Positions 12,583 to 17,295 of a DNA stretch of 22,045 bases are shown here, in pieces; position 1 is the stretch's first letter; every line of letters begins with the position of its first letter. The position numbers and the translations under genes are program-made. The notes under the pieces were generated by a model, which was not told the origin of the DNA, ran no database searches, and worked only from the letters and a program-made list of their open reading frames with translations. The DNA is taken from IMG/VR virus record IMGVR_UViG_3300046674_000258, positions 1-22,045 of that record, one strand, 5' to 3'. This DNA is from a virus.

Positions 12583-12609
12583 TCGCGGCATATACAAGGC
12601 TTATAATGA
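12583..12609 (+). promoter_or_regulatory. Cassette promoter P0
   Basis: TCGC at 12583 lies exactly 19 bases before TATAAT at 12602-12607, with ACAAGG between and GA after it. This is the first of twelve near-identical elements. It sits in the gap before the gene at 12634 and probably gives that gene its own transcript. The leader reads ACACCTCTTGAAAGGAG, a form seen again before the genes at 15356 and 19347. Confidence 0.8.
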
Positions 12610-12633
12610 CACCTCTTGAAAGGAGAAACTGTA

Positions 12634-12936
12634 ATGACAGATAACAAGTCAAAAAACGAAACCAATCCCCTTGATAAGGCGATTGCAAACATACTTACCG
12701 CAATGGAGGCCATCTCTCCGACCGCTGAAGTATACTCCAAAATGGTAGACATGCTCGAAAAGCTGTACAAGATCAAAGCCTCCGAAAGGCCCGATCGAGT
12801 CAGTAAAGACCAGCTAGTCTCCATTGGCGGAAGTGTACTTTCCAGCCTCATCGGAATCGGAATGATTCTCCATCACGAGAAGTTGCATGTAGTCGCCTCC
12901 AAGGCGCTTGGATTCGTTGCAAAGGCACGTATCTAA
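12634..12936 (+). CDS. Small protein with a C-terminal membrane helix, last gene before the main terminator
   Basis: This 100-residue protein has a soluble helical N-terminal half (AIANILTAMEAI, then EVYSKMVDMLEKLYKIKASE) and a hydrophobic segment at about 72-85 (SIGGSVLSSLIGIGMIL) followed by HHEKLHVVASKALGFVAKARI. I chose the ATG at 12634 because GAAAGGAG precedes it; the in-frame ATG at 12616 lies in the leader. It has its own promoter-like element (12583-12609) and ends 35 bases before a strong terminator. The function is unknown. Confidence 0.78.
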   Translation: MTDNKSKNETNPLDKAIANILTAMEAISPTAEVYSKMVDMLEKLYKIKASERPDRVSKDQLVSIGGSVLSSLIGIGMILHHEKLHVVASKALGFVAKARI

Positions 12937-12970
12937 CGTTACCCGATCGAAATAGATCAGGTGAAAATTT

Positions 12971-13019
12971 ATAAGCCGTGTACAAGAACTAATAACTCTT
13001 GTACACGGCTTATTTTTTT
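12971..13019 (+). terminator. Strong intrinsic terminator closing the tail and lysis region
   Basis: A perfect 17-bp stem is formed by ATAAGCCGTGTACAAGA and TCTTGTACACGGCTTAT around the 9-base loop ACTAATAAC, followed by a run of T. It is the longest perfect stem seen in the window and marks the border between the structural genes and the cassette array. Confidence 0.93.
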
Positions 13020-13027
13020 GTCTAAAG

Positions 13028-13054
13028 TCGCATAAATCACAAGGATTATAATGA
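13028..13054 (+). promoter_or_regulatory. Cassette promoter P1
   Basis: TCGC at 13028 is 19 bases before TATAAT at 13047-13052, with CACAAGG between them. The first bases after it are GAGAAGA. This copy has TCGCAT in place of the common TCGCAG or TCGCGG. Confidence 0.82.
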
Positions 13055-13084
13055 GAAGAAATTAAATCTATAAAGGAGAACCTA

Positions 13085-13255
13085 ATGAAAAAAGAATCAG
13101 AGCTTAATGCTGTGGAAACCTTTGTCATGTTTGGATTCGCTTGTGCTGCTGGAGCAGTTGCAAGCGGACTCGTACTGAGAACGCTAACCACAACCAAAGT
13201 TATTAACTATGTATATCAGACAACCCGAGAAGAAATTAAGAACTTCAAGAAGTAG
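13085..13255 (+). CDS. Cassette A: 56-residue single-pass membrane protein
   Basis: The gene starts with ATG after AAAGGAGAACCTA and ends in TAG. The product has a short charged start with ESELNAV, one hydrophobic helix at about 11-31 (small residues A and G throughout), and a polar tail ending EEIKNFKK. The ELNAV start and the IKNFK end are shared with the cassette D protein, which suggests duplication. The gene stands alone between promoter P1 and a stem-loop terminator. The function is unknown. Confidence 0.8.
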   Translation: MKKESELNAVETFVMFGFACAAGAVASGLVLRTLTTTKVINYVYQTTREEIKNFKK

Positions 13256-13288
13256 AGAAGAGTCCCCAACAAGGACTCCTCTTTTTGT
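13256..13288 (+). terminator. Terminator of cassette A
   Basis: GAGTCC pairs with GGACTC across the loop CCAACAA, extended past one mismatch by AGA and TCT, and followed by TTTTT. It starts directly after the stop codon. Confidence 0.85.
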
Positions 13289-13295
13289 CTAAACA

Positions 13296-13322
13296 TCGCA
13301 GCAAACACAAGGGTTATAATGA
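13296..13322 (+). promoter_or_regulatory. Cassette promoter P2
   Basis: TCGCAG at 13296 and TATAAT at 13315-13320 keep the 19-base spacing, with ACACAAGGGT before the -10 hexamer and GAGAAGA after it. Confidence 0.84.
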
Positions 13323-13355
13323 GAAGAAAACCACTTTTAAACAAAGGAACATATC

Positions 13356-13544
13356 ATGAACCCCAACAAAATCATTGGCGTAATTGCTATCGCTGTTGCA
13401 CCCATCATCATCACAACTGAATTCGTACGAGATACGAAAAAGAAAGTTGCGCACAAGATCGATGAGGTACAGTACGAACTGCATAATCCCCGTCATTTTG
13501 CCAAGAAGCGTGAACTAGCCCGCAAAGCTAAAAAGAACAAGTAA
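13356..13544 (+). CDS. Cassette B: 62-residue single-pass membrane protein
   Basis: ATG follows CAAAGGAACATATC. The product has a membrane helix at about 5-21 (IIGVIAIAVAPIIITT) and then a very basic cytoplasmic-type tail rich in K and R, ending KRELARKAKKNK. An N-terminal anchor with a basic tail suggests contact with nucleic acid or acidic lipid, but this is only inference. It is a single-gene cassette between P2 and a terminator. Confidence 0.8.
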   Translation: MNPNKIIGVIAIAVAPIIITTEFVRDTKKKVAHKIDEVQYELHNPRHFAKKRELARKAKKNK

Positions 13545-13549
13545 TCTCC

Positions 13550-13582
13550 AAATAGGAGTCCCCACAAGGACTCTTATTTTTG
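13550..13582 (+). terminator. Terminator of cassette B
   Basis: A 12-bp stem with one G-T pair is formed by AAATAGGAGTCC and GGACTCTTATTT around CCACAA, followed by T residues. The same hairpin is used almost unchanged after cassette D. Confidence 0.9.
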
Positions 13583-13584
13583 TC

Positions 13585-13611
13585 TCGCAGCGCTTACAAG
13601 GACTATTATGA
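13585..13611 (+). promoter_or_regulatory. Cassette promoter P3
   Basis: TCGCAG at 13585 and TATTAT at 13604-13609 keep the 19-base spacing, with TTACAAGG between. It follows the previous terminator within three bases. No convincing gene follows it. Confidence 0.8.
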
Positions 13612-13698
13612 GAACCCCTCCAACCAAACGTAAGCACGTGCAGGATGAAAAGGAATCTCACTAAAATAAAAGACCCATACCAACAGTCTTTTATTTTG
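13612..13698 (+). ncRNA. Cassette C: gene-less transcript (empty cassette or small RNA)
   Basis: Between P3 and the next terminator there are only about 50 bases plus the hairpin, so the transcript would be roughly 85 bases. The frame from ATG at 13645 has no stop before the terminator and runs into cassette D. An 18-codon frame (13608-13664) begins inside the -10 region, ahead of any likely transcript start. The sequence AAAAGGAATCTCAC resembles the ribosome-binding leader of the other cassettes and then goes straight into the terminator, as if the gene had been lost. It is either a decayed cassette or a small RNA gene. Confidence 0.45.
13663..13698 (+). terminator. Terminator of cassette C
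   Basis: A perfect 12-bp stem is formed by AAAATAAAAGAC and GTCTTTTATTTT with an 11-base loop. The 3' arm itself supplies much of the T-rich tail. Its sequence differs from the hairpins of cassettes B and D. Confidence 0.85.
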
Positions 13699-13702
13699 TG
13701 TC

Positions 13703-13729
13703 TCGCAGCGTTCACAAGGGCTATAATGA
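13703..13729 (+). promoter_or_regulatory. Cassette promoter P4
   Basis: TCGCAG at 13703 and TATAAT at 13722-13727, with CACAAGGGC between. The initial transcribed region is of the GAACCCC type. Confidence 0.84.
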
Positions 13730-13752
13730 ACCCCACTATGAAAGGAAAGACC

Positions 13753-14010
13753 ATGTCTGAGAAAGAAGAACTCAACGCCGTAATCGCCGTCACTCTGGGA
13801 GCTATTGGCGCAGTCGCCATCATCACCGCACAAGCAATTCGCATTGTGGAACTGAAAGGTCAAGTCAAGAACAAGGACAAGACCATTAAGAACCTCAGGC
13901 GCCGCTATGAAAAGGCGTTGAACCTGATGACTGTCGAACAGCTCTCGAAGACGCTCGATCACGTGATTGAAGACTTTAAATTCGAAGAAGTAATCAAGAA
14001 CTTCAAGTAA
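13753..14010 (+). CDS. Cassette D: 85-residue membrane protein with a coiled-coil tail
   Basis: I chose the ATG at 13753 because GAAAGGAAAGACC precedes it and it lies just downstream of P4; the longer in-frame opening from 13645 would cross a terminator and a promoter. The product starts MSEKEELNAV, has a membrane helix at about 8-28, and continues as a long charged helix (about 33-85) likely to form a coiled coil, ending FEEVIKNFK. The N- and C-terminal motifs are shared with cassette A, and the membrane helix aligns with that of cassette E. Confidence 0.82.
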   Translation: MSEKEELNAVIAVTLGAIGAVAIITAQAIRIVELKGQVKNKDKTIKNLRRRYEKALNLMTVEQLSKTLDHVIEDFKFEEVIKNFK

Positions 14011-14014
14011 CATC

Positions 14015-14047
14015 AAAATAGGAGTCCCCACAAGGACTCTTATTTTT
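14015..14047 (+). terminator. Terminator of cassette D
   Basis: It has the same stem and loop as the cassette B terminator (ATAGGAGTCC, CCACAA, GGACTCTTAT) followed by TTTTT. The last T is the first base of the TCGC of the next promoter. Confidence 0.9.
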
Positions 14048-14073
14048 CGCGGTAATCACAAGGACTATAATGA
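14047..14073 (+). promoter_or_regulatory. Cassette promoter P5
   Basis: TCGCGG at 14047 and TATAAT at 14066-14071, with TCACAAGGAC between and GAACCCC after. It abuts the previous terminator with no spacer. Confidence 0.84.
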
Positions 14074-14094
14074 ACCCCTATGAAAGGAACTATT

Positions 14095-14331
14095 ATGGAA
14101 GAGTATTCCCCCGAAGAACAGCTGATTGCGCTGGCCACCCTCGGCGTAGTTGCTGTAGTTGCTGTAGTCCAGTCTGTGAAGATTCACCGCAAAGAAGCGA
14201 AGAAGCGTAAGCTAATCCGTTTCCTAGGTGAAGTCTATCAAGACAAGATTCGGTATGCTACGACCACCGCCGAGCTCAACCAGCTCAACAAAGAATTCAA
14301 GGAAAAACTTGCCGCAATAAGAACTGACTAA
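14095..14331 (+). CDS. Cassette E: 78-residue single-pass membrane protein
   Basis: I chose the ATG at 14095 (MEEYSPEEQL), which has GAAAGGAAC just upstream; the ATG at 14080 is part of that leader. The membrane helix spans about 9-28 and contains VVAVVAVV, encoded by a nine-base tandem repeat. A basic segment (HRKEAKKRKL) and a helical tail follow. The helix aligns with that of cassette D. It is a single-gene cassette closed by its own terminator. Confidence 0.8.
   Translation: MEEYSPEEQLIALATLGVVAVVAVVQSVKIHRKEAKKRKLIRFLGEVYQDKIRYATTTAELNQLNKEFKEKLAAIRTD
14146..14168 (+). repeat. Nine-base tandem repeat inside a membrane-helix codon stretch
   Basis: GTAGTTGCT occurs twice in direct succession, followed by GTAGT. 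It encodes alternating Val-Val-Ala inside the membrane helix of cassette E. Replication slippage here would lengthen or shorten the helix by three residues without a frameshift. Confidence 0.85.
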
Positions 14332-14340
14332 AACAACCCG

Positions 14341-14371
14341 ATAAGGGGCCCCAACAAGGCCTCTTATTTTT
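14341..14371 (+). terminator. Terminator of cassette E
   Basis: A 10-bp stem with one G-T pair is formed by ATAAGGGGCC and GGCCTCTTAT around CCAACAA, followed by TTTT. Confidence 0.9.
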
Positions 14372-14378
14372 GTCTGAT

Positions 14379-14403
14379 TCGCGGCAATTACAAGGGGTAT
14401 AAT
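14379..14403 (+). promoter_or_regulatory. Cassette promoter P6
   Basis: TCGCGG at 14379 and TATAAT at 14398-14403, with TTACAAGGGG between. It is the only copy with AG in place of GA directly after the -10 hexamer. Confidence 0.82.
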
Positions 14404-14438
14404 AGAAGAATAATTCCCTTTAACGAAACGAGAAACTA

Positions 14439-14666
14439 ATGTTTAAGAACCGTTCATTTCAGGTTAAGATTGTTAAAGACGCCGCTAACCCGGTCGAAGA
14501 CTCCAAGCCCCTTGTGGACCCTGAAGAACTTTCTCGCATTGCGAAGGAAGTTATGAAGTACACCGCAATTGCTGGAATCGTCGTCATGGGTGCAGCAGCC
14601 GTCCTGAACACTCTTAGCGAAATTGCAGTTATTGCCGCAGAAGCTAACATCAACAAAGAAGACTAA
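14439..14666 (+). CDS. Cassette F: 75-residue protein with a C-terminal membrane helix
   Basis: The ATG follows AACGAGAAACTA, a weaker ribosome binding site than in the other cassettes. Residues 1-38 are polar and possibly structured (KNRSFQVKIVKD, then DPEELSRIAKE). One or two hydrophobic segments follow at about 40-68 (YTAIAGIVVMGAAAVL, then EIAVIAA), ending in a short polar tail. The topology is reversed compared with cassettes A, B, D and E, which carry the anchor at the N-terminus. No family is recognised. Confidence 0.78.
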   Translation: MFKNRSFQVKIVKDAANPVEDSKPLVDPEELSRIAKEVMKYTAIAGIVVMGAAAVLNTLSEIAVIAAEANINKED

Positions 14667-14673
14667 TTCCCCT

Positions 14674-14705
14674 AGAGAGGGCCCTAACACGGCCTTTCTC
14701 TTTGT
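14674..14705 (+). terminator. Terminator of cassette F
   Basis: AGAGAGGGCC pairs with GGCCTTTCTCT across CTAACAC with one bulged T, followed by TT. Confidence 0.78.
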
Positions 14706-14710
14706 CTGAT

Positions 14711-14737
14711 TCGCAGAAAATACAAGGACTATTATGA
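14711..14737 (+). promoter_or_regulatory. Cassette promoter P7
   Basis: TCGCAG at 14711 and TATTAT at 14730-14735, with ATACAAGGAC between and GACCCCC after. Confidence 0.83.
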
Positions 14738-14758
14738 CCCCCTAAGAAAGGAAACATC

Positions 14759-14956
14759 ATGTCCACGAAAGCCACTTTCGCGAACGCAAAGACCCGCCTC
14801 GTCCAGCTCATGGAAGAGAAGCCTTTGGAGACGCTTGCCGTCATTTCCGCAACTGCACTAGCAACTGCGAAACTGATCAGCAGCATCACTGAAGCGCGCA
14901 ACTCTTCCACTTGGAAGCGCGAAGTCCGGCGTCGTGAACGCAATCAGAAGATCTGA
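14759..14956 (+). CDS. Cassette G: 65-residue membrane-associated basic protein
   Basis: The ATG follows AGAAAGGAAACATC. An amphipathic N-terminal helix (KTRLVQLMEE) leads into a moderately hydrophobic segment at about 24-41 (ETLAVISATALATAKLI), and the C-terminal 20 residues are strongly basic (KREVRRRERNQK). The hydrophobic segment is less clear than in the other cassettes, so it may be peripheral. It is a single-gene cassette. Confidence 0.77.
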   Translation: MSTKATFANAKTRLVQLMEEKPLETLAVISATALATAKLISSITEARNSSTWKREVRRRERNQKI

Positions 14957-14973
14957 TCATCCCCACCAGATTC

Positions 14974-15005
14974 AAAATAGGAGCCCTACCAAGGACTTCT
15001 ATTTT
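14974..15005 (+). terminator. Terminator of cassette G
   Basis: AAAATAGGAGCCC and GGACTTCTATTTT pair around TACCAA, with one C-A mismatch and one G-T pair. The 3' arm ends in TTTT. It is a diverged version of the cassette B and D hairpin. Confidence 0.8.
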
Positions 15006-15010
15006 GCCTG

Positions 15011-15037
15011 TCGCGAAAATTACACGGGTTATTATGA
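15011..15037 (+). promoter_or_regulatory. Cassette promoter P8
   Basis: TCGCGA at 15011 and TATTAT at 15030-15035 keep the 19-base spacing, with TTACACGGGT between (CACGGG instead of CAAGGG). It precedes a region with no gene. Confidence 0.76.
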
Positions 15038-15041
15038 GAAG

Positions 15042-15218
15042 ATGCATAAGCACCTTCTCATAGGAAGAGCTCCTTCTGTCGCGAGGCACTGGAGACTGAT
15101 AACGGAATCATTGTCAATGCGATCCCGCTCTTCCACCTGAAAGGTATGGCCGATAGCCAAGCCCCTTAGTATGTTCCACGTAACCAGCCGTGCTTTGAGA
15201 CATACGCCTTTCTTTTTT
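15042..15218 (+). ncRNA. Cassette H: structured non-coding RNA with a tRNA-like fold
   Basis: No frame between P8 and P9 has a ribosome binding site and a start codon together, so this stretch is probably RNA. At 15063-15069 GGAAGAG pairs perfectly with CTCTTCC at 15128-15134, enclosing a unit of exactly 72 bases followed by ACC, as in a tRNA acceptor stem. Inside, CCTT can pair with GAGG, CTGATAA would suit an anticodon loop for Ile, and 15103-15127 folds as a long hairpin. However, no normal T-arm or anticodon stem can be drawn. A second closed unit follows (15140-15211) and ends in a T run. It may be a decayed tRNA, a tRNA mimic or another structured RNA. Confidence 0.45.
15140..15218 (+). 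terminator. Long-loop terminator-like structure of cassette H
   Basis: AAAGGTATG at 15140-15148 pairs with CATACGCCTTT at 15201-15211 with a two-base bulge, followed by TCTTTTTT. The 52-base loop contains two small hairpins, GGC-GCC and CACG-CGTG. The T run and position suggest transcript ending, but the loop is far longer than in the other cassette terminators. Confidence 0.5.
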
Positions 15219-15228
15219 GTCCATGCCC

Positions 15229-15255
15229 TCGCAGAAATTACAAGGGTTATAATGA
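15229..15255 (+). promoter_or_regulatory. Cassette promoter P9
   Basis: TCGCAG at 15229 and TATAAT at 15248-15253, with TTACAAGGGT between. It is a near-consensus copy. It leads into a leader of about 100 bases before the gene at 15356, much longer than in the other cassettes. Confidence 0.84.
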
Positions 15256-15328
15256 GAAGAATACTTGAGCAGCAATGCCAAGTAGCAGAATACGATCTAC
15301 ATAAACGCGATCATATTCTTCTCTTTTT
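15254..15328 (+). promoter_or_regulatory. Inverted repeat with T run in the P9 leader, possible attenuator
   Basis: GAGAAGAATA at 15254-15263 is a perfect inverted repeat of TATTCTTCTC at 15314-15323, followed by TTTTT. The left arm begins right after the -10 hexamer, so the first bases may not be transcribed and the RNA stem may have only five to seven pairs. If it forms, most transcripts would stop before the gene at 15356 and a short RNA would be released. Confidence 0.45.
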
Positions 15329-15355
15329 GTTTGCCTCTCTTGAAAGGAGAATCAC

Positions 15356-15481
15356 ATGCCCAATCCCGAAAACATCTCGCTTTGGTTTGTCATCACCACC
15401 TGCCTCATTCTTGGGGCTATTTATTTCGTTATGGGTTCCAAGGATCGCCGTGAGGCACGAAAGGCTAGGCTCAGGAAATGA
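15356..15481 (+). CDS. 41-residue single-pass membrane protein ahead of a DUF6353-like gene
   Basis: The ATG has a strong ribosome binding site in the leader CTCTTGAAAGGAGAATCAC. The product has one membrane helix at about 9-26 (LWFVITTCLILGAIYFVM) followed by a basic tail (GSKDRREARKARLRK). The stop overlaps the next start as ATGA, so the two are probably co-translated and may work together in the membrane. The leader resembles those before the genes at 12634 and 19347. Confidence 0.78.
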   Translation: MPNPENISLWFVITTCLILGAIYFVMGSKDRREARKARLRK

Positions 15482-16236
15482 CCAGTATTGCAAGTATCGC
15501 TAAGCTCACTACGAAAATCGTCAAGGAGAATTCCCCGATAATTCTCACGGGCATTGGCGTGGCGGGCGTGGCTACCACGGCGTTCTTGGCTGCCACCGCT
15601 GTACCAAAGGCTCTTCAGATTCTCGCTGAGGAGCAGGAAAATCACGAGGAGCCGCTCACACTCAAAGAGCAGTTCCTTCTTACGTGGCATTGCTATATCC
15701 CAGCCGCGGGGGCAGGTATCATGACGATCACCTGCATCATCTTCTCCACGTCCATCAACAACCGTCGGAACGCAACTCTACTGAGTGCTTTCACTTTGAG
15801 TGAGAAGGCCTTCAAGGAGTACCAATCCAAGGTGGCCGAAAACTTGGGCACGAAGGAGGAAGCCAAGGTCCGAACCGATATTGTCAAGGACCGGATTGCT
15901 AATAACCCTCCGCCCGCATCAGTCATCTTCACTGGAGACGGTGATGTGCTGTTCTACGAAGTATCAAACGATCGATATTTCCAGAGCACGGTCCAAAAGG
16001 TCCGTAGTGCTCTGAATGATGTCAATGCGAAGATCATTCGTGACAACTATGCGTCCTTGTCGGACTTCTACTATGCCATTGGTTTGAAGACTACTGGCGA
16101 CAGCGACGACAAGGGCTGGAATGTCGACACTCTTATGGACATCATATTCGATGTCGAGATGGCCGATGGTGACCGACCGTGCATCGCAATCACATATGCA
16201 ACAACGCCGATCTATAACTTCTGGAAGCAAGGATAA
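15478..16236 (+). CDS. DUF6353-like membrane protein, first copy
   Basis: This 252-residue protein resembles the DUF6353 family of phages and mobile elements. An N-terminal membrane segment at about 19-42 carries the typical NSPIILTGIGVAGVATTAF. A second at about 72-93 lies in the block LTWHCYIPAAGAGIMTI. INNRRNATLLSAFTLSEKAF comes next, then a helix with EYQSKV. The C-terminal domain has NPPPASVIFTGDGDVLFYEV, DRYFQSTVQKVRSALND and FYYAIGL. The function of the family is not known to me. It is coupled to the 41-residue gene upstream. A shorter-repeat relative starts at 21247. Confidence 0.8.
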   Translation: MTSIASIAKLTTKIVKENSPIILTGIGVAGVATTAFLAATAVPKALQILAEEQENHEEPLTLKEQFLLTWHCYIPAAGAGIMTITCIIFSTSINNRRNATLLSAFTLSEKAFKEYQSKVAENLGTKEEAKVRTDIVKDRIANNPPPASVIFTGDGDVLFYEVSNDRYFQSTVQKVRSALNDVNAKIIRDNYASLSDFYYAIGLKTTGDSDDKGWNVDTLMDIIFDVEMADGDRPCIAITYATTPIYNFWKQG

Positions 16237-16244
16237 CGTTTAAC

Positions 16245-16706
16245 ATGGTCTCTGAAGTACGCACCACATCATCCACTGGGGGTGAGAAAGGGGTTAAGGC
16301 TGAACGTCACGGCCTTATCCCTGTTGAAGCTCTTTCCATCGTAGCTCAGCTGTACGGTAAGGGTGCTGAGAAATATGAAGCACACAACTGGCGCAGGGGC
16401 TATGAATGGTCCAAATCTTATGACGCATTGCAGAGACACGCCAATGCCTTCTGGAATGGGGAAGATCTCGATCCTGAGATGCAGCTCCCCCACATGGCAT
16501 CCGTGGTATTTCACGCCTTGACACTCATCACCTTCATGCAGGAACAGCCCGGCTTCGATGACCGGTACAAGCCTGAAAGGGCAGAGTCTGAAGAAGCAAT
16601 CGCAAAGCTTCGGGAGGCATTAACTAGCACCGGTGACAGTCCATGGCGTAATGAACAACGATATGCAGAATATATTGAGTCTGATAAGGTTCATTCGCAG
16701 GATTAA
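16245..16706 (+). CDS. DUF5664 / MazZ-like dATP/dGTP diphosphohydrolase
   Basis: This 153-residue protein matches the pattern of DUF5664 enzymes: GGEKGVKAERHGLIPVEAL, then GKGAEKYEAHNWRRGYEWSK, SYDALQRHANAFW, GEDLDPEMQLPHMASVVFHAL. Characterised members are related to MazG and remove pyrophosphate from purine dNTPs; one, MazZ, works in the diaminopurine DNA pathway. Here it more likely tunes nucleotide pools, because no PurZ or DpoZ gene is in the window. The ribosome binding site is weak (AAGGATAAC). The last codons overlap promoter P10, whose TCGC starts at 16695. Confidence 0.8.
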   Translation: MVSEVRTTSSTGGEKGVKAERHGLIPVEALSIVAQLYGKGAEKYEAHNWRRGYEWSKSYDALQRHANAFWNGEDLDPEMQLPHMASVVFHALTLITFMQEQPGFDDRYKPERAESEEAIAKLREALTSTGDSPWRNEQRYAEYIESDKVHSQD

Positions 16707-16721
16707 CAGGGGTTATAATGA
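16695..16721 (+). promoter_or_regulatory. Cassette promoter P10, overlapping the end of the upstream gene
   Basis: TCGCAG at 16695 and TATAAT at 16714-16719 keep the 19-base spacing. The middle reads ATTAACAGGGG, diverged from the usual TTACAAGG, and includes the TAA stop of the DUF5664 gene. GAACCC follows. Confidence 0.78.
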
Positions 16722-16749
16722 ACCCGTAACCCCTAAAAAGGAGCACCAA

Positions 16750-16857
16750 ATGTTTAAGAAGCTTAAGGCCATTTTCATGCTGAACACCACCGACGTCAAG
16801 AACGTCATGGATATCTCAGCTGATCTGGATGAACTTCCCTCATTTAGCACCAACTAA
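16750..16857 (+). CDS. Cassette J: 35-residue peptide
   Basis: The ATG follows AAAAAGGAGCACCAA, one of the best ribosome binding sites in the array, which supports expression despite the tiny size. The product begins with a basic amphipathic stretch (MFKKLKAIFMLN) and ends in a short acidic segment (SADLDELPS). It has no membrane helix and is the only clear non-membrane protein among the single-gene cassettes. It may be a peripheral membrane or regulatory peptide. Confidence 0.68.
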   Translation: MFKKLKAIFMLNTTDVKNVMDISADLDELPSFSTN

Positions 16858-16874
16858 GTATTACCGCCGTAAGA

Positions 16875-16913
16875 AGGAGGATTTGTAGTAAAATACAGAT
16901 CCTCCTCCTTTTG
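16875..16913 (+). terminator. Terminator of cassette J
   Basis: A 13-bp stem with one G-T pair is formed by AGGAGGATTTGTA and TACAGATCCTCCT around a six-base loop, followed by CCTTTTG. Confidence 0.88.
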
Positions 16914-16916
16914 TGC

Positions 16917-16943
16917 TCGCGGAATTTACAAGGGCTATAATGA
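16917..16943 (+). promoter_or_regulatory. Cassette promoter P11
   Basis: TCGCGG at 16917 and TATAAT at 16936-16941, with TTTACAAGGGC between and GACACCCC after. Confidence 0.84.
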
Positions 16944-16974
16944 CACCCCACACTACTTTTAGTAAGGAAACAAA

Positions 16975-17232
16975 ATGGAAACCCCGAACACCATCGAAGG
17001 CGAAGTCATCTCTGAAGAGACGATTGAATCGAAGAAGAAGTTCTCCATTTCCCCCATGGCCAAGAAGGCCCTCATTGTAGGCGGAGCGGTAGTCGGCTTG
17101 ATTGTCGGCCTCGCCCTGCTTACCAAAGAGGACTCTTCGGAATCCACGGAGGAAACGGAAGACGACGTATCTATCGAAACGATCGACAACGGAGACGGCA
17201 CGTCATCGCTGATCATCACCGGTACCAACTAA
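16975..17232 (+). CDS. Cassette K: 85-residue single-pass membrane protein with an acidic tail
   Basis: The ATG follows AGTAAGGAAACAAA. The N-terminal 27 residues are acidic then basic, a membrane helix spans about 31-50 (KALIVGGAVVGLIVGLALL), and an acidic Ser/Glu/Thr-rich linker follows. The last 20 residues (IDNGDGTSSLIITG) look like a small beta hairpin. This central-anchor layout differs from the other cassettes and would place a short domain on each side of the membrane. The function is unknown. Confidence 0.8.
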   Translation: METPNTIEGEVISEETIESKKKFSISPMAKKALIVGGAVVGLIVGLALLTKEDSSESTEETEDDVSIETIDNGDGTSSLIITGTN

Positions 17233-17253
17233 TCCCCAACCAGTACCAAGGTT

Positions 17254-17295
17254 AAGAAGAGAACTATATAGAAATATATGGTTCTTCTTCTTTGT
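17254..17295 (+). terminator. Terminator of cassette K
   Basis: AAGAAGAGAACTATATA pairs with TATATGGTTCTTCTTCTT with one bulged T and one G-T pair, around GAAA, followed by TTTGTC. It is the last terminator of the array; no clear cassette promoter follows before the next gene. Confidence 0.75.

Follow-up and report, generated by a model that had tools for sequence, protein, structure and literature searches.

Background

Arrays of small membrane-protein genes have already been noted in Arthrobacter AM/AU, Rhodococcus CC and Gordonia DJ phages (PMC5513430, PMC13313380). Phage SPbeta encodes YonO, a single-chain RNA polymerase (RNAP) that is distant kin of the multi-subunit RNAPs and whose promoter remained to be determined according to its 2017 authors (PMC5467207). 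Thermus phage P23-45 has virion and non-virion two-barrel RNAPs of the single-chain type, together with an oriented promoter motif that co-occurs with the enzyme among relatives (PMC10770324). Here we analyze a 22,045-bp linear virus fragment from IMG/VR (record IMGVR_UViG_3300046674_000258; this whole stretch is hereafter the window), in which a 27-bp element, TCGCRNNNWTTACAAGGNNTATAATGA, is repeated twelve times at the head of small self-contained units. Phage two-barrel RNAPs and membrane-gene arrays are both known; the layout of one gene per promoter is unusual. We propose that the twelve elements are probably promoters of a two-barrel RNAP belonging to this phage group and not ordinary host sigma-A promoters.

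Organization of the array

The element has the layout TCGC-N7-ACAAGG-NN-TATAATGA. The sequence-only reading that drew attention to the region had counted twelve promoter-like copies in about 4.4 kb, and exactly twelve were recovered, all on the plus strand between 12583 and 16943. The window contains no copy outside this interval, on the other strand or as a reversed pattern. Scored with a weight matrix built from the window and Arthrobacter phage Qui copies, all 12 elements reach at least 28.7 bits, while the best of 20 window shuffles reaches 10.3. All 40 copies taken from the window and Qui, chosen via the ACAAGG..TATAATGA part, have the same spacing of the TCG, ACA and TAT blocks. The closest sequenced DNA to the window comes from Arthrobacter phages, and the array resembles those of Qui and Paella (gene 51 region, 83.5%).

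Nine of the twelve elements head a single small open reading frame (ORF) of 35-100 amino acids that has a Shine-Dalgarno sequence and begins a few tens of bases further on; the other three (13585, 15011 and 15229) head no credible ORF. A hairpin followed by a T-tract ends 11 units, and 9 of the 12 elements have one immediately upstream. The plan of one promoter, one gene and one terminator put forward earlier is thus borne out by the nine one-gene elements and eleven terminated units. It needs amending in one place: an ordinary packed run (15356-16706) lies inside the array, following the 15229 unit and having no element of its own. By a simple hydropathy rule, a membrane segment is predicted in 8 of 10 array ORFs, counting the nine and a 41-aa ORF at 15356.

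The element in other phages

Conservation in related phages, on which the sequence-only reading had staked its case beforehand, was found: the element is present in relatives. The exact pattern occurs in at least 119 IMG/VR stretches, compared with one for the reversed-pattern control, and 94 of the 119 loci have at least three copies. Across 126 loci, 758 copies were scored and not one locus has copies on both strands; the control gave a single match above 14 bits in 2.8 Mb. Between 7 and 34 copies, confined to a single strand in each case, are found in Arthrobacter Qui and Circum, Gordonia Gravy, Rhodococcus Pepy6, Streptomyces phages, Lactococcus 1706 and Faecalibacterium FP_oengus. Downstream of its tail genes, Qui carries a tandem series of 22 units, and isolated copies also occur there in gaps that hold no ORF; the copy number is 9-15 in each of Gravy, Pepy6, Circum, Gordon and IceWarrior. 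A blastn search with the consensus matched 55 Gordonia, 45 Arthrobacter, 34 Streptomyces and 4 Rhodococcus records, as well as human-derived siphovirus contigs. The phages that share the element include those of both Actinobacteria and Firmicutes.

The motif comes in dialects: Lactococcus P092 has TTTTACATACCCTATAATGA, Lactococcus 1706 has TTTTACAT...CTATAGTAGA and Streptomyces Scap1 has TATAGTGA. In Faecalibacterium FP_oengus the form is ACGCGAAAA...CA...CTTTATGGA (15 sites); the arrangement is kept and CTTTATG replaces TATAAT. The 'repeated intergenic regions' of CaiB are a different sequence from the element.

In Qui, the annotated starts of genes 49, 52, 54, 57 and 63 (locus L010, 38177, 39048, 39822, 40720 and 42568) fall within the element and are mostly the ATG of TATAATGA. 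Since GAAAGGA, resembling a ribosome binding site, sits downstream, these annotated starts look wrong, unless translation is leaderless.

A predicted single-chain RNA polymerase

A protein of about 900 residues is encoded by every complete relative. In the complete actinophage relatives examined, it belongs to a shared end block that also encodes a VRR-Nuc protein and a Cas4-like exonuclease. The protein is mostly labeled 'HTH DNA-binding' (HTH, helix-turn-helix) or 'hypothetical', and in a few RefSeq entries 'RNA-dependent RNA polymerase'; these labels were seen at the right genome ends (loci L136, L132, L134, L135 and L011-L012). It matches phrog_4291, 'RNA-dependent RNA polymerase', with 1294 bits. 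The Pfam family PF05183 (RdRP) gives a weak, sub-threshold match in 8 of 11 members and falls under the curated cut-off in Qui. The sequence ADFDGD, an instance of the DxDGD catalytic motif, is invariant in 11 of 11 named phages and in a 74-sequence alignment. HTH domains lie close to both ends of the protein, and the C-terminal one resembles sigma region 4.

An AlphaFold model from 74 sequences reached a pLDDT (predicted local distance difference test) of 82 and a pTM (predicted template modeling score) of 0.70; an earlier model from six sequences was poor, which the larger alignment remedied. Foldseek matched the model with probability 1.00 to QDE-1 (E 1e-8), RDR2, 8f72 and 8f5m (E 1e-8 to 1e-6). 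The phage P74-26/P23-45 RNAPs were matched at E 1e-6, and the largest subunits of cellular RNAPs came next. Global TM-scores are low (0.23-0.44), so that the match is one of a divergent multi-domain fold. A sequence search of the PDB with the RNAP profile returned as better matches only HTH proteins and designed helical repeats. Because of its catalytic motif and its modeled fold, the protein is taken to be a single-chain two-barrel (double-psi beta-barrel, DPBB) RNA polymerase. The family has members in 250 sequenced phages and over 500 IMG/VR stretches. Membership of the YonO family proper was not supported by profile comparison (hhalign probability 3%); YonO belongs to phrog_8308, not phrog_4291. 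The RNAP homologue of Lactococcus phage 1706, orf75 (L154 46483-49572), is annotated in GenBank as 'structural protein', and on that annotation the polymerase may plausibly be packaged in the virion.

Linking the element to the polymerase

Among 50 IMG/VR records chosen by the motif, 40 encode the RNAP (37 strong matches, two cut by contig ends and one weak); of 40 records picked with a random 15-mer, on average shorter ones, none does. The first scrambled control, a 16-mer, had no matches and another control was substituted. In the opposite direction, all 21 records that were selected by the RNAP and measure at least 33 kb carry the motif, with 193 matches versus 4 for the reversed pattern. 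A copy with consensus CtCGCannaaAaACAtggnnTATAATAGAAGG lies upstream of the RNAP in 36 of 70 RNAP-selected loci at a median distance of 928 nt (interquartile range 915-970); in these 70 loci there were none on the other strand and none in the reversed sequence. In annotated genomes this copy heads the RNAP operon.

The element and the polymerase also diverge together. Over eleven genomes, motif distance correlates with RNAP distance (Mantel 0.81), and the correlation is 0.69 given DNA polymerase distance (p=2e-4), while the converse partial correlation is absent (-0.34). This test sets the RNAP apart from one other conserved gene, not from all. From this two-way association and co-divergence we infer that the RNAP would recognize the element.

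Promoter features and alternative explanations

Several features bear on whether a host or a phage enzyme reads the element. A generic sigma-70 scan of the window found 8 sites where 9.1 were expected by chance, and paired a -35 with just one of the twelve plus-strand -10s; the elements are missed because they are without a TTGACA-like -35. Pairing over at least 9 bases between the 5' sequence and the arm immediately preceding the T-tract is present in 34 units, compared with 8 for random anchors. In every case the 5' arm has its first base inside TATAAT or no more than 4 bases past it, never at the sixth base or beyond. A sigma-70 start lies 6-8 nt downstream of the -10 hexamer. Such a start would leave paired bases outside the RNA, which suggests that the RNA starts at or just after TATAAT; with so small a set of predicted pairings this is supportive only. 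T7 promoters (TATAGGGAGA) have a comparable layout, with the start at or just after the conserved element.

The leading alternative is that the elements are host sigma-A promoters to which a phage-encoded activator, by binding the TCGC and ACA blocks, lends phage specificity, the RNAP serving other genes. TATAAT is perfect in most copies, the TCGC and ACA blocks are invariant and at fixed spacing about one helical turn apart, small HTH proteins occur in these phage genomes, and SPbeta YonO serves late genes (PMC5467207). However, the TATAAT found in most lineages is missing from FP_oengus, and other members carry TATAGTGA, TATTATGA or TTTAATGA. Conservation extends past the -10 through TGAGA, the terminator pairing would set the 5' end right behind TATAAT, and no single conserved activator was found. 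We consider this alternative rather unlikely.

Alternatively, the elements could be sites for a phage regulator, like operators or stoperators, set in weak promoters and silencing or timing the array. Dispersed, oriented and identical sites do recall the regulatory repeats of actinophages (PMC7302621). However, the sites here lie at a median of 24-28 nt before start codons, with a gene after them and mostly a terminator before them, which fits transcription starts and makes the regulator-site explanation improbable. Stoperators and integron-like cassettes were both considered and set aside. It is very improbable that the array is a passive remnant of tandem duplication, crossed by one long transcript and containing no active promoters: the terminators and promoters of the units share sequence as duplicates would, but the genes between the unchanged elements are mostly unrelated, and conservation of the elements extends to phages of different host phyla and to isolated sites that belong to no array.

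Recognition by the phage RNAP has to be weighed against several observations of its own. Most members have, in TATAAT, a perfect sigma-A -10. The upstream copy passes the threshold used in only about half of the RNAP loci, and the partial Mantel test comprises 11 genomes. The motif and the RNAP both mark one phage lineage, so that their association alone could reflect shared ancestry. The SPbeta region examined contains no such motif, and YonO has no profile-detectable relation to the family of about 900 residues. The 5' pairing comes from 34 units, and pairing of the T-tract with the A's of TATAAT may inflate the arms. The virion link is a single annotation in a distant relative, with nothing found for actinophages. 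The RNAP gene lies outside this 22-kb fragment.

Unit structure and turnover

Across the 126 loci, a hairpin and T-tract immediately upstream was found at 53% of non-first elements by a folding-based definition of terminators (a strict definition gave 16% upstream of later sites); the corresponding figures were 11% for first elements, 13% for random positions and 10% for shuffles. Units therefore tend to be joined with the terminator of one lying directly against the promoter of the following one.

The suggestion that the array is a modular collection gaining and losing units is supported by comparisons of close relatives, which differ from one another by whole units. Avazak has one complete additional unit (29506, gene 36) relative to Gravy, between flanks that are about 97-99% identical. 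Secretariat carries three Gravy units in a changed order, Conley has one unit replaced and Poco6 is without some of the Pepy6 units. The window genes at 13085, 14439 and 14759 match Qui array genes (74, 77 and 69% identity), again in a different order; several other window units have no relative among the loci compared.

A bias toward membrane proteins, claimed earlier for nearly all products, is real but not universal: in four annotated relatives, a membrane segment is predicted in 32 of 55 motif-headed genes and in 57 of 245 other small genes (p=1e-6). The idea of a membrane-targeted accessory system is not borne out in that form, as a recurring minority of units are ORF-less or tRNA-like RNAs. 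The ORF-less unit at Gravy 29623 (unit 3, L132 9624-9776) is 97% conserved in Avazak and Conley, and that at Pepy6 41294 (L133 14295-14549) is 92.5% conserved in Poco6. Both are better conserved than many neighboring coding units, which argues that the RNAs are functional and makes the two units candidate phage small RNAs.

Array units repeatedly contain tRNAs or tRNA-like RNAs, some of them degenerate, with the anticodon arm missing or only a lone T-arm, and some closed by a stem between the 5' end and the terminator. Such places were seen in the window (15011-15210), Pepy6 (L133 14185-14290), P092 (L150 20000-20110 and 20390-20480), FP_oengus (L151 2930-3010) and Gordon (L135 23028-23100). 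ARAGORN recognizes just two of these units. It reported no tRNA in the window, which leaves the resemblance of the 15011 unit to a tRNA unproved, and an Rfam search of the array gave no credible match.

Gene content of the array

All features described here are on the plus strand. The promoter-like element 1 (12583-12609; TCGC..ACAAGG..TATAATGA) is followed by small gene 1 (12634-12936), whose 100-aa product has a predicted membrane segment, belongs to phrog_5818 and has relatives in 71 loci; a terminator hairpin (-25.7 kcal/mol) with seven T's follows at 12971-13013. Element 2 (13028-13054) heads small gene 2 (13085-13255), encoding a 56-aa predicted membrane protein that is 74% identical to Qui gp51, with its terminator at 13255-13283. 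Behind element 3 (13296-13322), small gene 3 (13356-13544) encodes 62 aa with a predicted membrane segment, has no relative among the loci compared and is terminated at 13550-13579. Element 4 (13585-13611) heads an ORF-less unit of about 90 nt, in which there is just an 18-codon ORF whose start would fall within the element, and which ends in a terminator at 13663-13697.

The next two units encode predicted membrane proteins that are orphans among the loci compared: 85 aa (13753-14010) between element 5 (13703-13729) and a terminator at 14019-14042, and 78 aa (14095-14331) between element 6 (14047-14073) and a terminator at 14340-14368. Element 7 (14379-14405) heads a gene for a 75-aa predicted membrane protein of phrog_6618 (14439-14666), 77% identical over 53 aa to a Qui array gene and terminated at 14674-14701. 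The 65-aa gene (14759-14956) behind element 8 (14711-14737) belongs to phrog_13500 and is 69% identical to Qui gp59; its terminator is at 14977-15002.

Element 9 (15011-15037) heads a strongly folded ORF-less unit of about 190 nt with the predicted closing stem GGAAGAGC/GCTCTTCC. Element 10 (15229-15255) is followed by an ORF-less RNA unit of 70 nt (15254-15323); within this unit the 5' end GAGAAGAATA and the terminator arm TATTCTTCTC-TTTTT pair. The packed run (15356-16706) begins with the 41-aa ORF and includes a DUF6353 protein (15478-16236) with relatives in 78 loci and a protein with the dATP/dGTP diphosphohydrolase N-terminal domain (16245-16706). Element 11 (16695-16721) heads a 35-aa gene without a predicted membrane segment (16750-16857; terminator 16871-16910), and element 12 (16917-16943) an 85-aa gene with one (16975-17232), whose terminator (17254-17292) closes the array.

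Proposed mechanism

If the phage RNAP reads the element, each promoter would start one short transcript, which either encodes a single micro-protein, in most cases with one membrane segment, or is itself a small RNA. The transcript would halt at its own intrinsic terminator, which abuts the promoter of the next unit. Since each unit is self-contained, units could be gained, lost and reordered singly. The diverged promoter copy often present on the polymerase operon (VRR-Nuc, Cas4-like exonuclease, RNAP) would let the enzyme transcribe its own gene, a loop that could be started either by a virion-borne RNAP copy, as the 1706 record would allow, or by host transcription. A virion RNAP may enter the cell and fire the array first, as described for virion RNAPs elsewhere (PMC10770324). 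A natural guess for the micro-proteins is that they take over or guard the host envelope, or exclude superinfecting phages. A wider possibility, which we offer tentatively and do not favor, is that in hundreds of siphoviruses of Actinobacteria and Firmicutes a virion-delivered RNAP, arriving together with the DNA, instantly fires up to about 30 identical promoters, of which each yields a single membrane micro-protein or a single structured RNA, the array being a host-takeover kit of interchangeable single-gene units.

If the assignment is true, the elements would form the first promoter family attributed to this large and little-studied clade of polymerases, and they could yield an orthogonal transcription system for Actinobacteria. 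Anonymous arrays of small membrane genes would become a defined regulon, together with small RNAs that annotations have overlooked.

Comparison with known systems

Integron gene cassettes are likewise one-gene units that are gained or lost singly. In contrast to integrons, the repeat here is the promoter element and each unit has its own promoter. The membrane-gene arrays noted previously are in the same phages, at the same genome position and of the same kind of gene as those analyzed here; in the accessible portions of those accounts, a shared promoter, one-terminator units, RNA units and the RNAP all go unmentioned (PMC5513430, PMC13313380). Nor did our literature search find an account of the promoter common to the units, of how the units are built, of the RNA units or of a link between promoter and polymerase, though the 2011 account of Pepy6/Poco6 could contain one. 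The SAS/ESAS repeats of actinophages are also short, oriented and upstream of many small genes, but have other sequences and positions; SAS overlaps the ribosome binding site, and there is no linked polymerase (PMC7302621).

The modeled RNAP matches the fold of the gp64/gp62 structures of Thermus P23-45. In the available part of that work, however, the promoters were assigned from ChIP-seq and Cappable-seq, where ours come from sequence; the motifs are AT-rich or GC-rich, the virion RNAP forms a fusion with the tape measure protein, and no single-gene array is described (PMC10770324). YonO serves a late operon, whereas the polymerase considered here would serve single-gene units. On the wider question, left by the 2017 work (PMC5467207), of which promoter a single-chain phage RNAP of such a kind reads, the 27-bp element provides a candidate with natural variants, tied to the RNAP family of about 900 residues by two-way co-occurrence and co-divergence.

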